Shown here piece by piece: positions 14,785 through 26,715 of a DNA stretch of 52,618 bases. This stretch comes from Acidimicrobiales bacterium (GTDB taxonomy: Bacteria; Actinomycetota; Acidimicrobiia; Acidimicrobiales; JAHEJN01), in assembly GCA_024638845.1 (NCBI GenBank), contig JAHEJN010000017.1, positions 1 to 52,618 of the forward strand, given 5' to 3'. The translations under genes were made by a program, and so were the position numbers. Under the pieces are notes generated by a model. It did not search any database, was not told the DNA's origin, and was given only the letters and a program-made list of their open reading frames with translations. Numbering within the stretch: the stretch's first letter is position 1; each line of letters begins with the position of its first letter.

Positions 14785-17232
14785 TCACTCCATCACGCGC
14801 AAGGTGTCGGGCAGGTTCATGCGTCGAAGCCGTCCGATGAGGAACAGCGGAGCGGTGGCCACGGCGACGATTCCGACGATCACCGCTATGGCGATGGTCG
14901 ACGGTGCGACGTACAGGCCGATGCCCACATCAGGCAGGGTGGTCGTCGCCAACGATGCGAGCATCCACTGGACGAAGATGGCACCGGCCCCGACACCGAT
15001 CGCCGTGGCCGCCACGCCGACCAGAACGCTCTCCTTCACGACAACCGCGAGAACCGTGCGAACCGGCAGGCCGAAGGCCTGCATCGTTGCGTGTTCCCGC
15101 TGTCGCTCCTCGACCGTGATCCGGGTGGCGTTGAACGAGATGAGCAGGGCCAACGCGAGCACCGCCGCCGCAGTGACGACGAAGAAGCTCAGGAAGCGGT
15201 CGAGGGCCTGGTCGATGGCCTGGGTGACACGGGCGATCGGCTGGCTCGATGCCACCCCATCGAGCCCGAAGATCGATCGCTGGACGTCGGCGGCGGAGGC
15301 GTCGGAGGCGGGGTACGCCTGGACGACGTTCACGGCGCCCTCGAGCCCGAACCGATCGGCTGCGGCGACATCCAGGAACGCGAACGTCCGGATCGGGTTG
15401 GCATGGATGCCCGAGACGAGGTGATCGGTCTCCGACAACACGAACCGCTCGGCGTCGACGCGAACCGGATGGCGGACGGCCACCACGTCACCCACCTGCA
15501 GACCGAGGTCATCGGCCGCCTTGCGCGCCAGCACGATCGTGTTCTCGCCGGCGACTTCGTCTCCTTGGGCGAAAGTCGGGGTCCATGCAGCCCGATCGAA
15601 GTCGATGAGCTCGACCAACAGGTCGAGGTCATCGTCGGAATCGACGGCCAGGGCCGTGACCGGCAGCCGAAGGCCGGCATCGATGTGGGCCACCGACGGA
15701 GCGTCGCCGATGGCGGTCACGATCGACGAGTCGGCGGGATGAAACGTATCGAGTTGCACGACAACCCGATCGGGGTCGCTCTTGTTGAACTCGTCGGCGG
15801 CCTGATCGAGGGTGCGCTGGAAGCTGTCGAGCATGCCGAGCACGCCGACGAGAGCCGTGATCGCGGCACCGACGCCCACGGCGGTCAGGAACGCCCGTCG
15901 CAGATTCCGCATCACGTTGCGCAGCGGCATCTGGTTCATGGTGGAGCCGGGCAGGGTGACCCGGCCCGTCCAGTCCGTGAGGCGGCTCGTCTTGGCGGTC
16001 AGGTGGCCGGTACGAATGGCCTCGATCGGCTCGACCCTCAGTGCCCGCCAGACCGGAACGGCGCTGGCGGCAACGGGCACCACGAGCCCGAGCGCAGCCG
16101 CCTGAGCGAAGACGCCGAACTGGAAGGGGGTCCGGTGGATCGGCAGCGGCAGGAACGACTCGAGCAGATCGGCGAAGGCGTTGCCGACGAGAACGCCGAT
16201 CCCCAGACCGGCGATCGTGCCGATCACGGCGACCTGAAGACCGACCAGGAGAGGACGGATGGCCAGTTGTCGTCGGGGGACGCCGAGCGCCATGCCGATA
16301 CCCAGCTCCCGACGCTGGGCCTCGACGATGCGAGTGACCAGGTTGAACGCCGCGAGAGCAGCCGCGCCGAGCACCAGCGCCGAGAGCGCATTCCAGAACC
16401 GCTGATCGTTGTCGATGTCTTCGTACAACACGCGCACGGCATCGGCGTCTTCACGGGTCGAGACCGTCGCGCTGAGTCCGGCATCGGCCATCTGGGAGGC
16501 GAGCTGTGCTTGCACCACGTCTCGATCAGCGTCGGGTTCGAGGGTCAGCACGAGATCGTTGACCGTGCCGGGTCGGTCGACGAGATCCTGGGCGGTCGCG
16601 AGTGGCACGTAGAGGATCGCCAGTTCGCCCTCCGCGAAGATCGAGCCCTCGGGACCTTCGTAGAAGAAATCCTCGGGGGCGACTCCGAGCCCGCTGTAGG
16701 TGATGGAGCGGCCACTGGCGACCGTCACCACTCCGGTGCCGGGAAGACCCCGATCATCGGCAAACTTCGCCTCCAGCACCGCCTCCTCTTGTGCCGGTTC
16801 GGTGCCGTCGCGGATCCAGACCTCGTCGACGGGTCGCTCGGATCCGAACGTCATCCCGACCAGCCGAGCAGGCACGAGGACCGAGTCCGCTCCTCCGGTG
16901 TCGACCTGGTTGTCGGTCACCAAACGCTCGGCCACGGCGTCGATGCTGTCGGCGCTCGCAATCGCCGCGGCGGCATCGAGGAGCGTGTCCTGCTCGGTGA
17001 AGGTGCCGGGGCTGAGACTCACCCGCAGGTCATGCATGGACAGGGCCGAGAAGCTCGCGTCGTTCGACTGGCGCCGCCAGGTCGCGGTGCTCCCGAGACC
17101 CGCGTACACGCCGGTGCCGATGGCCAGGACCAGCGCAATGGCGACCACGGCCACCCAGCGAGATCGAAGATCGCGCCAGGACCAGCGCAACCAGAACATG
17201 CCGCTTCGGCCCGAGGACGGTGGCCTCACCAT
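14785..17232 (-). CDS. FtsX/MacB-type ABC transporter permease
   Basis: 815 residues. An N-terminal membrane helix (residues 25-47), a large extracytoplasmic domain to about residue 300, three helices, a second helix and domain (from about residue 430), and three C-terminal helices: the duplicated FtsX arrangement of LolC/E-like permeases. Such exporters move lipoproteins, peptides or lipids, or act mechanically on the envelope. The start ATG 17232 overlaps the ATPase stop by 7 bases. It converges with the COG2403 gene 10 bases away. Confidence 0.87.
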   Translation of the reverse strand: MVRPPSSGRSGMFWLRWSWRDLRSRWVAVVAIALVLAIGTGVYAGLGSTATWRRQSNDASFSALSMHDLRVSLSPGTFTEQDTLLDAAAAIASADSIDAVAERLVTDNQVDTGGADSVLVPARLVGMTFGSERPVDEVWIRDGTEPAQEEAVLEAKFADDRGLPGTGVVTVASGRSITYSGLGVAPEDFFYEGPEGSIFAEGELAILYVPLATAQDLVDRPGTVNDLVLTLEPDADRDVVQAQLASQMADAGLSATVSTREDADAVRVLYEDIDNDQRFWNALSALVLGAAALAAFNLVTRIVEAQRRELGIGMALGVPRRQLAIRPLLVGLQVAVIGTIAGLGIGVLVGNAFADLLESFLPLPIHRTPFQFGVFAQAAALGLVVPVAASAVPVWRALRVEPIEAIRTGHLTAKTSRLTDWTGRVTLPGSTMNQMPLRNVMRNLRRAFLTAVGVGAAITALVGVLGMLDSFQRTLDQAADEFNKSDPDRVVVQLDTFHPADSSIVTAIGDAPSVAHIDAGLRLPVTALAVDSDDDLDLLVELIDFDRAAWTPTFAQGDEVAGENTIVLARKAADDLGLQVGDVVAVRHPVRVDAERFVLSETDHLVSGIHANPIRTFAFLDVAAADRFGLEGAVNVVQAYPASDASAADVQRSIFGLDGVASSQPIARVTQAIDQALDRFLSFFVVTAAAVLALALLISFNATRITVEERQREHATMQAFGLPVRTVLAVVVKESVLVGVAATAIGVGAGAIFVQWMLASLATTTLPDVGIGLYVAPSTIAIAVIVGIVAVATAPLFLIGRLRRMNLPDTLRVME

Positions 17233-19360: not shown

Positions 19361-19405
19361 GCGAGCTCTCGTGGGCATGATTCCTCCAATCTGTGTGGAG
19401 TAGAC

Positions 19406-20620
19406 GTGAAGGTTGCGGTGCTGGGCGCGGGTCTGACTGGCAGTCTCGTCGCATTGGAACTGGGGTCGTCGGGGCATCGCGTCACGCTGTACGACCGTCA
19501 GTCGCTTCCGTTTTCCGGCGCGAGCCTCTCCTGCGAGGGGAAGATTCACCTTGGCTATGTCTACGCGCTGGATACCAGCCAGAAGACTGCGACAACCATG
19601 TTCCGCGGGGCCGCATGCTTCCAACCGCTCGTGGAGAAATGGACGGGTCGCGAGCTGTTCGACAATCACATGTCGGATCCCTTTCTTTACGCGGTACCGA
19701 ATGACAGCCTTTCGACCGTCGAGGAGATCCGCGGGCACTTCGACGAAGTGTCGATGGGCATCACGGCGATGGCGGCCGACAAAGCTCTTCCGCTCGTCGA
19801 CGCGCGATGGGAGGAGATGACCCGTGATGACCTGGCATCGATCTTCGATCCATCCGAGGTGGTGACGGCGTTCCGTACGCGCGAACGCGCGATTGACACT
19901 GAAGCTCTGGCTGACGCCTTGCGAGCCGCGCTGGCCGCATCACCCCGCCTGGAACTCAGCATGGAGACCGAGATCTCGGCCGTTGCCAAGGAATCCAAAG
20001 GCCTGCGGGTGTCCGGAACGGTTGAGAGCGGGCCATTCAGCGAGAGCTTCGATGTCGTGGTCAATGCGCTCTGGGAACACCGCATCCACATCGATGCGAC
20101 TCTCGGGCTGCCGGTGGAGCGTCCGGTTGTTCACCGGTTCAAGTTCGGCCTGTTCACCCGTGACCCGAAGGTGCTCGAGAACACCCCGAACGTCACGTTC
20201 CTCATTGGGCCCTTCGGCGACACCGTTACCTTTCCCGATAATGCGTATGTATCGTGGTATCCGGTCGGGCTCGTAAGCCAAGAACGGGCGGTTCGCCCTG
20301 CCCGACAGGATTTCATCCTGTCGGAGGCGGATCGGCGTGACATCATTCACGGCACGGTTGGCAATCTTCGCCGCTTGATGCCCGTCGGCGGAGCGAACTT
20401 GGACGAAGATCCTGCGCTCTGGAGGCTCAAGGGTGGCTTCGTCACGGCATGGGGCCAAAGTGGCATCGAAGATGCTCAGAGCGAGCTCCACAACCGGTAC
20501 GACGTCGGTGTGTTCTCCAATGGCAATTATCACTCCATCGATACGGGGAAACTGACCACTGCACCGATGTTCGCGGCAGAAGCCTGCGCTCGCATCAACG
20601 CGAGGAACACGGCCGCATGA
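19406..20620 (+). CDS. FAD-dependent oxidoreductase, DAO-like
   Basis: 404 residues from GTG 19406 with GGAG 5 bases upstream. N-terminal Rossmann FAD motif VLGAGLTGSLVALELGSSGH (4-23) and acidic end of beta 2 at YDR; C-terminal VFSNGNYHSIDTGK is where DAO proteins close the FAD site. Substrate unknown. The stop overlaps the ATG of the next gene (ATGA, 20617-20620), so it works with a glycosyltransferase-methyltransferase fusion, perhaps on a sugar or on a cell-surface or secondary metabolite. By eye the codon use is less GC-rich than in the neighbours, a hint of transfer. Confidence 0.78.
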   Translation: MKVAVLGAGLTGSLVALELGSSGHRVTLYDRQSLPFSGASLSCEGKIHLGYVYALDTSQKTATTMFRGAACFQPLVEKWTGRELFDNHMSDPFLYAVPNDSLSTVEEIRGHFDEVSMGITAMAADKALPLVDARWEEMTRDDLASIFDPSEVVTAFRTRERAIDTEALADALRAALAASPRLELSMETEISAVAKESKGLRVSGTVESGPFSESFDVVVNALWEHRIHIDATLGLPVERPVVHRFKFGLFTRDPKVLENTPNVTFLIGPFGDTVTFPDNAYVSWYPVGLVSQERAVRPARQDFILSEADRRDIIHGTVGNLRRLMPVGGANLDEDPALWRLKGGFVTAWGQSGIEDAQSELHNRYDVGVFSNGNYHSIDTGKLTTAPMFAAEACARINARNTAA

Positions 20621-22563
20621 CGGTGACCGTCTGTATTCCGGCCTACCGCGCCGGAGCGTTCATTGTCGAGACCGTCGGGTCCGTCCTTCGACAAAGTCAC
20701 GATGATCTGCGCGTGGTCGTTGCCGTCGATCCGCCCAGTGATGGCAGTCGGGATGATACGGCGGACGCCCTGGAGGCATTTCGGTCCGACCGGCGACTGT
20801 CTTGGCATGTGAATTCACGTCGTCTGGGTTGGGCCCAGAACGTGAATTCTCTCGTCGATCATGTGAAGACGCCCTACTACGCGTTCCTGCCCCATGACGA
20901 CATCTGGTGTCCCAACTATCTCGAGGTACTCCTCGAGGCGATCAACGCACGGCCCGAGGCGGTGGTGGCTTACGCCGACTCCTTACGTTTCGGTGATTCA
21001 GATCCCGTGCGCGTCGGAGTTGATCTTCGGTCTGGTGAGGACAGGCTCAGAGGCCTTCTGCGTTTCCTGATCCAGGGCACAGAGGCACACATGTGGCGAG
21101 GAGTTTCGCGGACCGAAGCGCTGCACGAGATCGGAGGCTTTCCGATCGACGGGCACAAGGGCTTGGTCGTCGAGTGCGAGTACTCTCTTGCGCTCTTTGG
21201 CGCTGGGACGGTCGTCCACGTTCCGCGAACGCTGTACTTCAAGAGGATCTATGAGCGCATCATCGTCTCTGCGTCCCGTGAACGCATGACGCAGCCGCTT
21301 CCCGAGCGCGTTGAAGGGTGGGAGGAACACGATCGCAGAATGACGCGGCTGCTCGAAAAGGCGCTGGCTGACACAAAGGCGACGTCAGAGCAGGCCACTT
21401 TGTGTCATGCGGCCAAGGACGCGGCCCTCGTGCGCAGGCGTCAGCAGTTCGTCGGGAAGACCTTGGAGGCGCGGCATCTCGAGCGCATTGCCGCGGCGCT
21501 CTCCGCGTGCGCTGATTCGAGTGATCCACTGGCTCCGGAAGTCGCGGCCAATCTGCATCTCGTTCTGCAGGTCCATTTCGAGAGCGTGGGCGACAGCACG
21601 AGCGCGAACGAGGAATCCCGAAAGGCGTGGACCGTCGCACCCAACTCCGCCGCGGCGGTCCTCGCGCACGCCAAGGCGCTGGATCGGGACAATCGTCCCC
21701 TCGAGGCGTTAGAGCGCGCGAGCGAAGTGATCAGGCTGTCGCCTCGAGACGAAGCGATGGTGGCGCACGCGCTCATCCGACAGATCTACGACAAGCTGCA
21801 ATGGACAGCCCCTTTCCATGCAGACGTGGCTAACCCGTCCACGGAGGATGGAACCGCCGTGACTCGCCCTCATCCCCGGCACCTGGATCCCAGCGTTGAA
21901 GTAACCAGAGGGGTGCGTCCCTATCTCGAGGTGTTGAGCGACTTGCACGCCGTACTTGCCCCGAAGAAGTATCTCGAGATCGGGGTGAGGCATGGGGCCA
22001 GCCTCGCATTGGCGACGTGTCCTGCCATCGCCGTTGATCCGGTACCGGAGACGGGGACTCTTCCATCGAACGTGAAGCTCCATCGTTGCACCAGCGACGA
22101 CTTCTTTCTGATCCACGCGAGCAGTGCGATGCGGGGCGAGGTCGATCTCGCCTTCATCGACGGGGTGCATCTCGCCGAGTTCGTGTACCGAGATTTCATC
22201 AACGTCGAACGGATCATGGCTCAGAATGGCATGATCGTCATCGACGATGTCTATCCCAACCATCCCATTCAGGCCCGCCGAGTGCGTACTTCACAGGTGT
22301 GGACGGGGGATGTGTGGCGCTTTGCCCTGTTCCTGGAATCCAACCGACCGGATCTCGAACTGACGTGGCTGGACACGGCACCTGGCGGCTTGCTGATGGT
22401 CTCCAATCTCTCACCGGTCGATGATCGTCTCCGGGAGATGTATGACGCCACTGTGCGCGAATGGGCGGCGCAGCCAGATGTGGCCCCTCCTCGATCCATA
22501 CTCTCCCGTGAACATGCCATCGCCCCGACCCGTGACGTCCTTTTGCGACATTCGAAACGGTGA
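20617..22563 (+). CDS. Fusion: GT2 glycosyltransferase, TPR-like region, class I methyltransferase
   Basis: 648 residues. Residues 1-230 are a family-2 glycosyltransferase: VTVCIPAYRAG at beta 1 and a DXD-like HDD at 93-95. Residues about 280-410 are helical with a TPR-like pair (AWTVAPNSAAAVLAHAKAL, ALERASEVIRLSPRDEAM). From residue about 440, YLEIGVRHGASL and DLAFIDGVHLAEFVYRDF mark a CmcI-like/methyltransf_24 Rossmann domain with VIDDVYPNHP. A sugar may be added and then methylated by one polypeptide. It overlaps the FAD oxidoreductase gene. An upstream frame to 20449 is antisense/overlap noise. Base composition appears lower in GC than the window. Confidence 0.82.
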   Translation: MTVTVCIPAYRAGAFIVETVGSVLRQSHDDLRVVVAVDPPSDGSRDDTADALEAFRSDRRLSWHVNSRRLGWAQNVNSLVDHVKTPYYAFLPHDDIWCPNYLEVLLEAINARPEAVVAYADSLRFGDSDPVRVGVDLRSGEDRLRGLLRFLIQGTEAHMWRGVSRTEALHEIGGFPIDGHKGLVVECEYSLALFGAGTVVHVPRTLYFKRIYERIIVSASRERMTQPLPERVEGWEEHDRRMTRLLEKALADTKATSEQATLCHAAKDAALVRRRQQFVGKTLEARHLERIAAALSACADSSDPLAPEVAANLHLVLQVHFESVGDSTSANEESRKAWTVAPNSAAAVLAHAKALDRDNRPLEALERASEVIRLSPRDEAMVAHALIRQIYDKLQWTAPFHADVANPSTEDGTAVTRPHPRHLDPSVEVTRGVRPYLEVLSDLHAVLAPKKYLEIGVRHGASLALATCPAIAVDPVPETGTLPSNVKLHRCTSDDFFLIHASSAMRGEVDLAFIDGVHLAEFVYRDFINVERIMAQNGMIVIDDVYPNHPIQARRVRTSQVWTGDVWRFALFLESNRPDLELTWLDTAPGGLLMVSNLSPVDDRLREMYDATVREWAAQPDVAPPRSILSREHAIAPTRDVLLRHSKR

Positions 22564-22576
22564 CCGAGCCCGCAGC

Positions 22577-24415
22577 TCAGCGAGGCGCACCGCAGTCGAG
22601 CCGGGCGTAGTGGATGGTGTCGAATCGGGAACGGAAGCTCGAGATGTCGGCCTGCAGTGCCTCTGGATCCGGGGTGGCGAGGGCTCGAGCGATCAGCTCG
22701 GCGAGAGCGTCCATGTCGTCGGGCCCGGCCCCCCAGCGGACGATCTCGTTGGTGCCGATGCGTAGGCCGTCGTCGAGCCCACTGGGCAGTCCGATGGCCG
22801 ACGTCAGAAGGTTGGCTCGGCGAAGGAGCTTGGCGAGATGGTGGCCGCCGCCGAGCGGGCGCGCGTCGAGCGCGAACGCATGCGACAGCGTGGCGGGCCG
22901 GCCGTCTCGGTACACCGCTACTCGGGCGCTGGACAAGGAAGCGGCGAGCCGTGCCGCGCTCTGCACCATTGCCCCTGCATAGCCGATTCCGTACTCGAGC
23001 CAGTCGAGCAGCGTGACGGCCAGCGCCGCCGTCTTGCCCACATCGAAGTTCGCCGTGAGGCCGGGGAAGGCGATGGCATCGACCCGCTCGGCGATGGCTG
23101 CGTCGTTGGTCACGAGAAGCCCCGACGGCGGGCCGGCCAAGCTCTTGTACGTGCTCATCGTCATGATGTGCGCGCCCTCGTGCAGAGGGTTCGGCCAAGC
23201 GTGGCCGGCGATGATGCCCGACAGGTGCGCTGCATCGAAGAGCACCTTGGCGCCGACGGCATCGGCGACGGCGCGGATGCCTTCGACATCGTGGTGGGTG
23301 AGGTTGAGGCTCGACCCGATCGAGATGACCTTCGGACGGATCCGCTCGGCCATGGCGCCGAGGGCCTCGGCGTCGATGGTGTACCGCTCGGCGTCGATGG
23401 GCGCGTCGTGGATGTCGAGTCCGTACAGGCCGGCCGCCCCTGCCGGATGATGGGTCACGTGGCCCGCGATCGTGGCCGGGGGAACGATGATCGAGTCGCC
23501 GGGCCGGGCGCAGGCCATGAACGCGTAGAGGTTGGCCATCGCGCCGGACGGAACGCGGATCTCTGCGTACCCTGCGTCGAACACCGTGGCGGCGAGCTCG
23601 GCCGCGATCACCTCGATCTGTTCGATCGCCTCGAGCCCCATCTCGTACTTGTCGCCGGGGTAGCCGAGCGACGTCCGCGTGCCGAGACCCGAACCCAGGG
23701 CCGCTTCGGCCCGTGGGCTCATGGTGTTGGTAGCCGGATTCAGATTGACGCACTCGACGTCGTGAATCCGTCGATTCTGCTCGATCAACGAGTCGAGGGA
23801 CTCGGCCAACATCTCAGCGGTCGTTGCGTCGGCTGCGGCTGCGATCGTCTGTACTCGTGCTTCAGACGTCTCGGGCACCCATGAACGGACCCGAAGCGAT
23901 GGCGGTCGAGTGCGAACGGTGGTCTGCCAGATCTCCTCTCCCTCGTCGTCGACCTCGCCCGTGCGCTCGAAGCCGTTGGCCTCGGCGACGCGCTGTGAGG
24001 CCATGTGCCCGGGATGGATGTGCGCGACGAGCTGTTCGATGCCGTTGGTCCTCAACCAGCCGCACATGGCGCGAGTGGCCTCGGTTGCGAACCCCTGACC
24101 CTGCCAGTCGACGCCGATGACCCAGGCCACATCGGCGGTGTTTCCGGTCACCGTTGCCTGCACGAACCCGATGGCGTCGCCGGTTTCGACGGCGCGCAGG
24201 ATCCAGTTGTGCCACTGTTCTCCGGGATCGAGGCTGCCGCGAACCAGCGCCTCGTACCGCCCGGTCAAGGTTTCGATGTCGGGCGGCTCGCCGCGCGTAT
24301 AGCGGTACAGCTTCGCGGCCGACAAGGTCATGACCATCTCCGCGGCATGGGCGACTCTCAACGGTTCGAGTCGGAGCCGATGGGTCACCAGAGGCTCGGT
24401 GCGGAGGGGTGGCAT
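22577..24415 (-). CDS. GNAT acetyltransferase fused to a serine-hydroxymethyltransferase-like PLP enzyme
   Basis: 612 residues. Residues 1-175 form a GNAT domain of the RimJ/RimL type (THRLRLEPLR at the start, acetyl-CoA loop QGQGFATEA, GFERTG near its end). Residues about 185-612 are a full-length SHMT-like domain: LNPATNTMSP, LGYPGDKYEMG (SHMT: YPGKRYYGG), FDAAHLSGIIAG, and the PLP lysine K424 in TMSTYKSLAGPPSG (SHMT normally has THK). The changed active-site residues suggest a relative of GlyA with a different substrate. Fusion is by a single uninterrupted frame. It converges with the GT fusion 13 bases away. Confidence 0.85.
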   Translation of the reverse strand: MPPLRTEPLVTHRLRLEPLRVAHAAEMVMTLSAAKLYRYTRGEPPDIETLTGRYEALVRGSLDPGEQWHNWILRAVETGDAIGFVQATVTGNTADVAWVIGVDWQGQGFATEATRAMCGWLRTNGIEQLVAHIHPGHMASQRVAEANGFERTGEVDDEGEEIWQTTVRTRPPSLRVRSWVPETSEARVQTIAAAADATTAEMLAESLDSLIEQNRRIHDVECVNLNPATNTMSPRAEAALGSGLGTRTSLGYPGDKYEMGLEAIEQIEVIAAELAATVFDAGYAEIRVPSGAMANLYAFMACARPGDSIIVPPATIAGHVTHHPAGAAGLYGLDIHDAPIDAERYTIDAEALGAMAERIRPKVISIGSSLNLTHHDVEGIRAVADAVGAKVLFDAAHLSGIIAGHAWPNPLHEGAHIMTMSTYKSLAGPPSGLLVTNDAAIAERVDAIAFPGLTANFDVGKTAALAVTLLDWLEYGIGYAGAMVQSAARLAASLSSARVAVYRDGRPATLSHAFALDARPLGGGHHLAKLLRRANLLTSAIGLPSGLDDGLRIGTNEIVRWGAGPDDMDALAELIARALATPDPEALQADISSFRSRFDTIHYARLDCGAPR

Positions 24416-24870: not shown

Positions 24871-26715
24871 ATGACTCTCCAAGTGCATCTCCTCGGTCGT
24901 CCCCGTTTGGCGAGGGAGACGGGCGAGGCCTACCGCTTTCGAAGCCGGAAGAGCTGGGCTCTCCTGGCCTATCTGATCCTGAGCGACCGGGCCCCGACGC
25001 GCGTTCAGCTCGCCTCACTCCTGTTCGCGGAAGCCGACGACCCGCTCCGGGCGCTTCGTTGGAGTTTGTCCGAGATCCGGCGCGGCCTTGGCGGCGATGG
25101 TTCCGCCGATGGCGACCCAGTCGTGCTGTCACTGGGCGACGAGGTCTCCGTCGACGTCCGCAGCGTGATCGGCGGGACATGGGCCGACGCCGTCGGGCTG
25201 CCAGGTCTCGGCCGCGATCTGCTCGAGAATGTAGCGATTCGCAAGGCGCCTGGCTTCGACTCCTGGCTGTTGTCGCAGCAGCGGCACCTGGCCGCAGCAT
25301 GTGAGGCCGTCCTCCACGAGGCAGCCCTGGCCTCGATGTCGCAGGGCGACTTCGACGCAGCGCTCCGCCACGCCGTCCGGGCTGCCTCGATGACTCCGCT
25401 CGACGAGAACCACCAGGCACTGTTGATCCGGCTCTATCGGCTCAAGGGAGACGACGAGGCCGCGGCGAGGCAGTACACATCCTGTTGTGAGTTGCTCGAT
25501 CGGGAGATGGGCCTGACACCTGGCGCGGCCGTGCAACGGGCGAGATACGAGACGATGGGCGATTCCGACGTGTTGGCCGACGCCACCTCCATGGAGGCCG
25601 TCATCGAGGCCGGCTCGGCGGCCGTGTCGGCCGGCGCCGTGTTCACCGGACTCCAGTCACTGAGAACTGCTGTCCGGATGGCTGACAGGGCCGAATCGCA
25701 CTCCCTTCGGGTCGCCGCGCGCCTCGTTCTGGCCGAAACGCTGATCCACTCGCTTCGCGGTCTCGATGAGGAGGGCCTGGCCATTCTCTACGAGGCCGAC
25801 GGCATCGCCGTCGCCAACGCCGATCAGGCGTCGGCCGCGCGGGCCCGAGCAGAGCTCGGTTATGTCGACTTCCTGCGAGCCCGCTATGGCCGAGCCGAAC
25901 TATGGCTGACCGAAGCCATTGGCCTGGCGGGCGACAATCCGTCGATACGCGCCAAGGCCGCAAGTTATCTGGGATCGGTCGAGAGCGATCGTGGCGACTA
26001 CGCAAACGCACGGAGGCTGCTCGGTGAGGCGGTTGGGCTGTCGCAGGTCACGGGAGATCGCCGAACGGCGGCCTACGCCCTGTCGATGCTGGGCCGCGTC
26101 GAGCTCCTGTGTGGGGATCTCCGCGCCGCGACGGAGTTGCTCGACGAGTCGGTTGAGATCGCCGAGCGCGATCATTGGCTCGCCTTTCTGCCGTGGCCCC
26201 AAGCAATGCTGGGTGACGTTCGGTTGGCGGACGATCAGGTCGACCGTGCCGCCGAGCTTCTGAATCAGGCGTTTGCCAGAGCGTGCCAGCTCGGTGACCC
26301 GTGTTGGGAGGGGATGGCGGCCCGGGGCTTGGCGCTGATCGCCGATGCGACCGGTGAATCCGATCGCGCCTTCGAGCTGCTCGCCGACGCCCGGGTTCGG
26401 TGCAACCGGCTCGCCGACCCGTATGTCTGGCTCGATGTGTACATCCTGGACGCGCAGTGCGAGCTGGGGCTGCGGCACGACCATTCCGCCACCACGGTGT
26501 GGATCGAGGCGATGAGCAGGCTCGCCGCCCGAACCGGCATGAAGGAACTGACGGTGCGATCGATGCTGCACGGAGCCGCTCTCGGACACCAGGGAGGCGC
26601 AGCTGCAGCCCACATTCTCGGTGCCGAGGTCGACAATCCCGTGATCGCAACGCTGCTCCGATCGCATGGCGACGCCGCCAGCCTCTCAGGCGTAGCCAGA
26701 TCCTGGTCGGGTTGA
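24871..26715 (+). CDS. AfsR/SARP-like regulator with BTAD and TPR repeats
   Basis: 614 residues. Residues 1-95 hold a winged-helix-like segment (LLGRPRLARETGEAYRFRSRKSWALLAYLIL) as in trans_reg_C/SARP proteins. Residues 95-245 are the bacterial transcriptional activation domain (ALRHAVRAASMTPLDENHQALLIRLYRLKGDDEAAARQY). The rest is TPR-like helical repeats to the end, without an NB-ARC ATPase. Likely a transcription activator controlled by protein contacts. Probably co-expressed with the DUF4242 gene. It converges with the next gene 3 bases away. Confidence 0.78.
   Translation: MTLQVHLLGRPRLARETGEAYRFRSRKSWALLAYLILSDRAPTRVQLASLLFAEADDPLRALRWSLSEIRRGLGGDGSADGDPVVLSLGDEVSVDVRSVIGGTWADAVGLPGLGRDLLENVAIRKAPGFDSWLLSQQRHLAAACEAVLHEAALASMSQGDFDAALRHAVRAASMTPLDENHQALLIRLYRLKGDDEAAARQYTSCCELLDREMGLTPGAAVQRARYETMGDSDVLADATSMEAVIEAGSAAVSAGAVFTGLQSLRTAVRMADRAESHSLRVAARLVLAETLIHSLRGLDEEGLAILYEADGIAVANADQASAARARAELGYVDFLRARYGRAELWLTEAIGLAGDNPSIRAKAASYLGSVESDRGDYANARRLLGEAVGLSQVTGDRRTAAYALSMLGRVELLCGDLRAATELLDESVEIAERDHWLAFLPWPQAMLGDVRLADDQVDRAAELLNQAFARACQLGDPCWEGMAARGLALIADATGESDRAFELLADARVRCNRLADPYVWLDVYILDAQCELGLRHDHSATTVWIEAMSRLAARTGMKELTVRSMLHGAALGHQGGAAAAHILGAEVDNPVIATLLRSHGDAASLSGVARSWSG

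Follow-up and report, generated by a model that had tools for sequence, protein, structure and literature searches.

What does an FAD-dependent oxidoreductase gene do when it overlaps a gene that joins a glycosyltransferase to a methyltransferase, and how did such a pair come to stand in the genome of an acidimicrobial bacterium? The two genes lie on a contig of 52,618 nucleotides from an Acidimicrobiales bacterium (JAHEJN010000017.1 of assembly GCA_024638845.1), here called the window; it is one (C218) of the 220 contigs that make up the 3.7 Mb genome. A sequence-only reading had described two open reading frames overlapping by ATGA, the second encoding a fusion in which a family 2 glycosyltransferase (GT2) is followed by TPR-like helices and then by a CmcI-like methyltransferase. 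It had further proposed that the pair is a recent acquisition with a promoter-like leader of its own, that the three activities serve one substrate, for example a cell-surface glycan or a secondary metabolite, and that no described pathway is known to contain this set of genes.

Domain make-up of the gene pair

The overlap was borne out: the stop codon of the FAD gene and the start codon of the fusion gene share the ATGA at 20617–20620. Pfam assigns the first protein to the DAO superfamily (PF01266, 50.3 bits against a cut-off of 27.9), in keeping with the DAO fold of its structure model, and finds Glycos_transf_2 and Methyltransf_24 in the second. Membership of glycosyltransferase family 2 rests on 63.5 bits for PF00535 against a cut-off of 23.3, together with the GT-A fold of the N-terminal half found by Foldseek, and membership of Methyltransf_24 on 41.4 bits for PF13578 against a cut-off of 26.3, together with the retention of the invariant columns of the family. 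The likeness to CmcI also held, although the match of the methyltransferase profile in the PDB is weak. The helices named in the earlier description are present in the model, but no TPR profile matches the fusion protein of the window at E ≤ 1, and it does not qualify as a TPR protein; hits to such profiles come instead from the tails of four homologues (L023, L024, L065, and L091). The features are collected in Table 1.

Table 1. Features of the FAD gene and the fusion gene, in window coordinates
Feature	Coordinates	Strand	Evidence
FAD-dependent oxidoreductase, DAO fold, 404 aa, GTG start	19406–20620	+	ORF; PF01266 E 3e-13; structure model pLDDT 95.5; foreign codon usage; tree
GT2/helical/methyltransferase fusion, 648 aa from the ATG at 20617	20617–22563	+	ORF; Pfam; structure model
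GT2 domain, GT-A fold, residues ~1–225	20617–21291	+	PF00535 E 3e-17; Foldseek matches to the GT-A enzymes SpsA, TarS, RmlT; 56% identity to the GT2 of L044
Helical TPR-like stretch, residues 228–394	21298–21798	+	Eight helices in the structure model; TPR profiles match homologues only
Low-confidence linker, residues ~395–430	21799–21906	+	pLDDT <50 at residues 399–432; the GT2 of L044 ends here in the alignment
Methyltransf_24 domain, remotely CmcI-like, residues ~431–648	21907–22560	+	PF13578 E 3e-10; 55% identity to the Rhodobacter sp. CZR27 module; CmcI in PDB E 5e-4
Family motif SLSCEGKIHLG, residues 40–50, with invariant Ser40, Glu44, His48, Gly50	19523–19555	+	89/89 sequences
Shine-Dalgarno-like GGAG before the GTG start of the FAD gene	19397–19400	+	Sequence read directly

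The leader fared less well. An eight-codon ORF (MIPPICVE, 19377–19403) does exist and overlaps the Shine-Dalgarno-like GGAG, but no sigma-70-like site was found in the leader, its RNA folds no better than shuffled sequences (z +0.95), it has no match in Rfam, and no counterpart of the ORF was seen by eye in the corresponding stretches of the two closest homologues. On these grounds, a regulatory leader was rejected. Downstream of the pair, on the reverse strand, a single ORF (22577–24415) combines a GNAT acetyltransferase domain with an SHMT-like PLP domain, of which the longest matches among the relatives searched cover only the SHMT-like part.

Composition and ancestry of the pair

The pair differs in composition from its surroundings, as had been suspected. 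GC content falls from ~0.67 in the surroundings to 0.60–0.64 over the pair (0.61 overall), and GC at third codon positions is 0.73 in the FAD gene and 0.71 in the fusion gene versus 0.86 and 0.84 in the two adjacent genes. The codon-usage scores of the two genes (z −3.05 and −3.50, respectively) are the lowest of the 33 genes called in the window, where the score of the FAD gene covers only the part from 19598 because the gene caller began there (GC3 of the whole gene, 0.735). The next lowest score belongs to a 614-aa ORF at 24871–26715 on the forward strand (z −1.51, GC3 0.777).

A maximum-likelihood tree of 89 flavoproteins, obtained with a quick search and SH-aLRT support only, places the sequence of the window among alphaproteobacterial sequences in a clade with a support of 100, together with those of a Rhodobacterales MAG (L044, 63% identity), Rhodobacter sp. 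CZR27 (L018), and Maricaulis (L045). Within its own class (395 genomes, its own excluded), the best relative is 36% identical over nearly the full length. The homologous pair of the Rhodobacterales MAG resembles that of the window in composition (GC 0.63, GC3 0.72–0.77), and for the gene that flanks the window pair upstream, the same family and order hold relatives that are ~60% identical. Foreign composition, phylogeny, the distance of the relatives within the class, and the flanking gene together support transfer from an alphaproteobacterium, and the pair was probably acquired horizontally from that group, in agreement with the recent acquisition first suggested.

Two other origins were rejected. 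An ordinary core gene would not have its matches confined to 4 of 59 relatives, where three of the four matches are weak, and to 10 of 395 genomes of the class, with its own genome counted in both figures. A viral or phage origin was set aside because relatives were found in neither viral contigs nor phage records. The same genome also carries a second, diverged FAD-GT2 pair on another contig (C164, locus L009, ~15369–16372), whose FAD gene contains a run of N.

Neighbourhoods of homologous genes

Relatives of the flavoprotein were sought in genome contigs with a profile of its family, blind to the neighbouring genes, which yielded 162 relatives, of which 80 loci were kept; a scan of the same contigs with the single protein gave no matches. 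The named organisms among the 80 loci span ten phyla. At 79 of them a GT2 gene is found no more than 1.5 kb from the FAD gene, versus 4 of 104 control windows of equal size taken ~4–5 kb away at the same loci. A wider count (92/93) contains duplicate loci, and the figure therefore rests on the 80-locus set. The FAD gene precedes the GT2 gene on the same strand at 55 of the 79 loci and follows it at 13, the two stand on opposite strands at six, and five were left by the script as overlapping or ambiguous. In two of these five (L059 and L060) one protein carries both the FAD and the GT2 domain, and one of the two, from Oceanicola granulosus (L060:7962–11078), unites FAD oxidoreductase, GT2, and FkbM methyltransferase in one chain and stands behind four genes that, from their N-terminal sequences, look like rmlB, rmlD, rmlC, and rmlA. 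The lone exception is Maricaulis parjimensis (L045:8028–9194), where the flavoprotein is present and no match to the GT2 protein of the window was found in the genome.

FAD-GT2 is a widespread, phylum-spanning module. The idea of a unique set of genes was therefore partly wrong: it fails for the flavoenzyme and the GT2, and stands for the methyltransferase fusion, which is particular to this locus. A search for a description of the module found none, but it covered only openly licensed papers and is correspondingly weak evidence. The pair has stayed together across ten phyla, whatever its orientation and with fusion in at least two cases, which suggests that the two enzymes share a single reaction sequence.

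In its closest relative, the GT2 of L044, the protein stops where that of the window continues into the linker and methyltransferase. The related methyltransferase modules, 55% identical to that of the window in Rhodobacter sp. CZR27 and 51% in genome G425 (the genome of L044), are each joined to a further methyltransferase domain rather than to a GT2. They occur in the same two genomes as the closest GT2 genes. The module of Rhodobacter sp. CZR27 is encoded on another plasmid, beside rfbA-D; that of G425 looks to be set among surface-polysaccharide genes, since its neighbours resemble, from their sequences and by eye, aminotransferases, an acetyltransferase, and a nucleotide-sugar dehydrogenase. 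The joint occurrence of GT2 and methyltransferase module deserves note, because only 2 of 395 genomes of the G425 family contain a match to the fusion protein at E ≤ 1e-40, but two genomes make a small sample. The protein of the window is the only one to cover both halves among the matches listed for the 395 genomes of the class and the 395 of the G425 family. These alignments show a methyltransferase joined to a GT2 that is without it in its closest relatives.

A transferase and a methyltransferase in a single chain that acts on a surface glycan have a precedent. WsaE of Geobacillus stearothermophilus, which acts on the S-layer glycan, likewise unites methyltransferase and glycosyltransferase domains in one chain, but its domain layout differs: in WsaE the methyltransferase is N-terminal and accompanied by two transferase domains (PMC2943079), whereas the protein of the window has a C-terminal methyltransferase, one GT2, and a flavoenzyme partner. 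The Oceanicola granulosus protein shares with the window the combination of flavoenzyme, GT2, and methyltransferase, but carries all three in one chain and has a methyltransferase of the FkbM family.

A further variant includes a cupin of the FdtA family (PF05523), which occurs at the loci of 28 of the 31 members of one clade versus 1 of the 58 other rows, a count that is descriptive and has no test value because the clade was chosen after the data had been seen. The cupin beside the FAD-GT2 pair recalls the FdtA/QdtA-type deoxysugar pathways, from which the window differs in that no FdtA match was found in its genome. Families of this kind also bear on whether the pair could be a small cassette that oxidises, glycosylates, and methylates a natural product. 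CmcI is an antibiotic-tailoring enzyme, and an oxidase with a glycosyltransferase and a methyltransferase is a common tailoring set, but when Pfam families were tallied over 82 genes neighbouring homologous pairs, the 25 commonest comprised FdtA, sulfotransferase, and polysaccharide-synthesis families, among others, and no polyketide or peptide-synthetase family. The neighbours thus lend no support to the secondary-metabolite role once suggested, which we regard as improbable.

Flavoenzyme chemistry and proposed role

The solved structures nearest to the flavoprotein model include glycine oxidase, the best fold match, as well as GlpD, sarcosine oxidase, NikD, and GlpO, all at 13–18% identity. 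The invariant His48 of the family aligns with a histidine of LhgD and GlpD, and SolA and DadA have none at that position. In GlpO and L2HGDH, His51 and His92, respectively, are proposed to be the bases that deprotonate the substrate hydroxyl (PMC10726252); we read chain residue 85 of 4x9m as His51 of GlpO. Conservation and alignment therefore favour oxidation of a C–OH group, with His48 as the proposed catalytic base, and we consider alcohol oxidation about evenly balanced against other chemistries. The enzyme thus shares with LhgD/L2HGDH and GlpO the DAO fold and a histidine at the proposed position (PMC10726252), after the FAD-binding segment. It differs from them in its very low identity, in a profile match that covers mainly the FAD-binding start, and in its GT2 partner, which is no part of the LhgD/GlpO systems. 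It may work as they do but is not filed as a member, because the match is local rather than of full-length, family-level similarity.

Two other roles for the flavin were weighed. The enzyme could oxidise amines or amino sugars, as glycine oxidase, DadA, and NikD act on amines, and so attack a glycan amino group in place of a hydroxyl, with the rest of the module working as in the favoured reading below. Amine oxidation draws support from DadA, which outscores LhgD on the profile of the flavoprotein family and is the highest of four E. coli controls, and the best fold match points the same way; the invariant His48, at the catalytic position of hydroxyl oxidisers, argues against it, and we hold it to be rather unlikely. 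Far less probable still is that the flavin helps to rearrange a nucleotide sugar without redox chemistry, in the manner of UDP-galactopyranose mutase, with the GT2 using the product. That mutase and its transferase are a known pairing of a flavoenzyme with a GT2, but Pfam at E ≤ 0.001 gives only DAO and NAD_binding_8 for the flavoprotein of the window, the mutase profile does not match it, and no mutase appears among the best 50 fold matches shown.

On balance, we favour the view that the two genes are a cassette gained by horizontal transfer and belong to a glycan-tailoring FAD-GT2 module that is widespread but apparently uncharacterised; glycan tailoring as the class of function is held with more confidence. 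With His48 and FAD, the flavoenzyme would oxidise a secondary sugar hydroxyl to a keto group, either on a nucleotide-sugar donor or on the growing glycan, the GT2 would transfer the oxidised sugar or a partner sugar, and the C-terminal domain would O-methylate the product with S-adenosylmethionine. The target would most likely be a cell-surface polysaccharide or glycoprotein. In favour of this reading count the neighbourhoods (79/80 versus 4/104), the fusions L059 and L060, the FdtA clade, the rfbA-D neighbours and the apparent surface-polysaccharide genes around the methyltransferase modules of the nearest genomes, His48, the GT-A fold, and, for the transfer, the foreign composition and the alphaproteobacterial clade. 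Against it count the position of the window pair outside any glycan cluster, the amine oxidases beside GlpD and GlpO among the nearest folds, the higher score of DadA than of LhgD, the flavoprotein of L045 without a GT2 match, and the restriction of GT2 and methyltransferase co-occurrence to two genomes. That three activities serve one substrate or pathway is supported only indirectly, by the 79 of 80 neighbourhoods, the FAD-GT2 fusions, and the occurrence of GT2 and methyltransferase modules as separate genes in the two nearest genomes.

More tentatively, the FAD-GT2 pair may be an undescribed, phylum-spanning module by which surface glycans receive an oxidised (keto) sugar, and to which either FdtA or a methyltransferase is added as a clade-specific third part. 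His48 and the FdtA-linked and methyltransferase-linked variants offer concrete targets for the study of oxidised-sugar chemistry on bacterial surfaces, and the copy in the window links the FAD-GT2 pair to methylation through a gene fusion.
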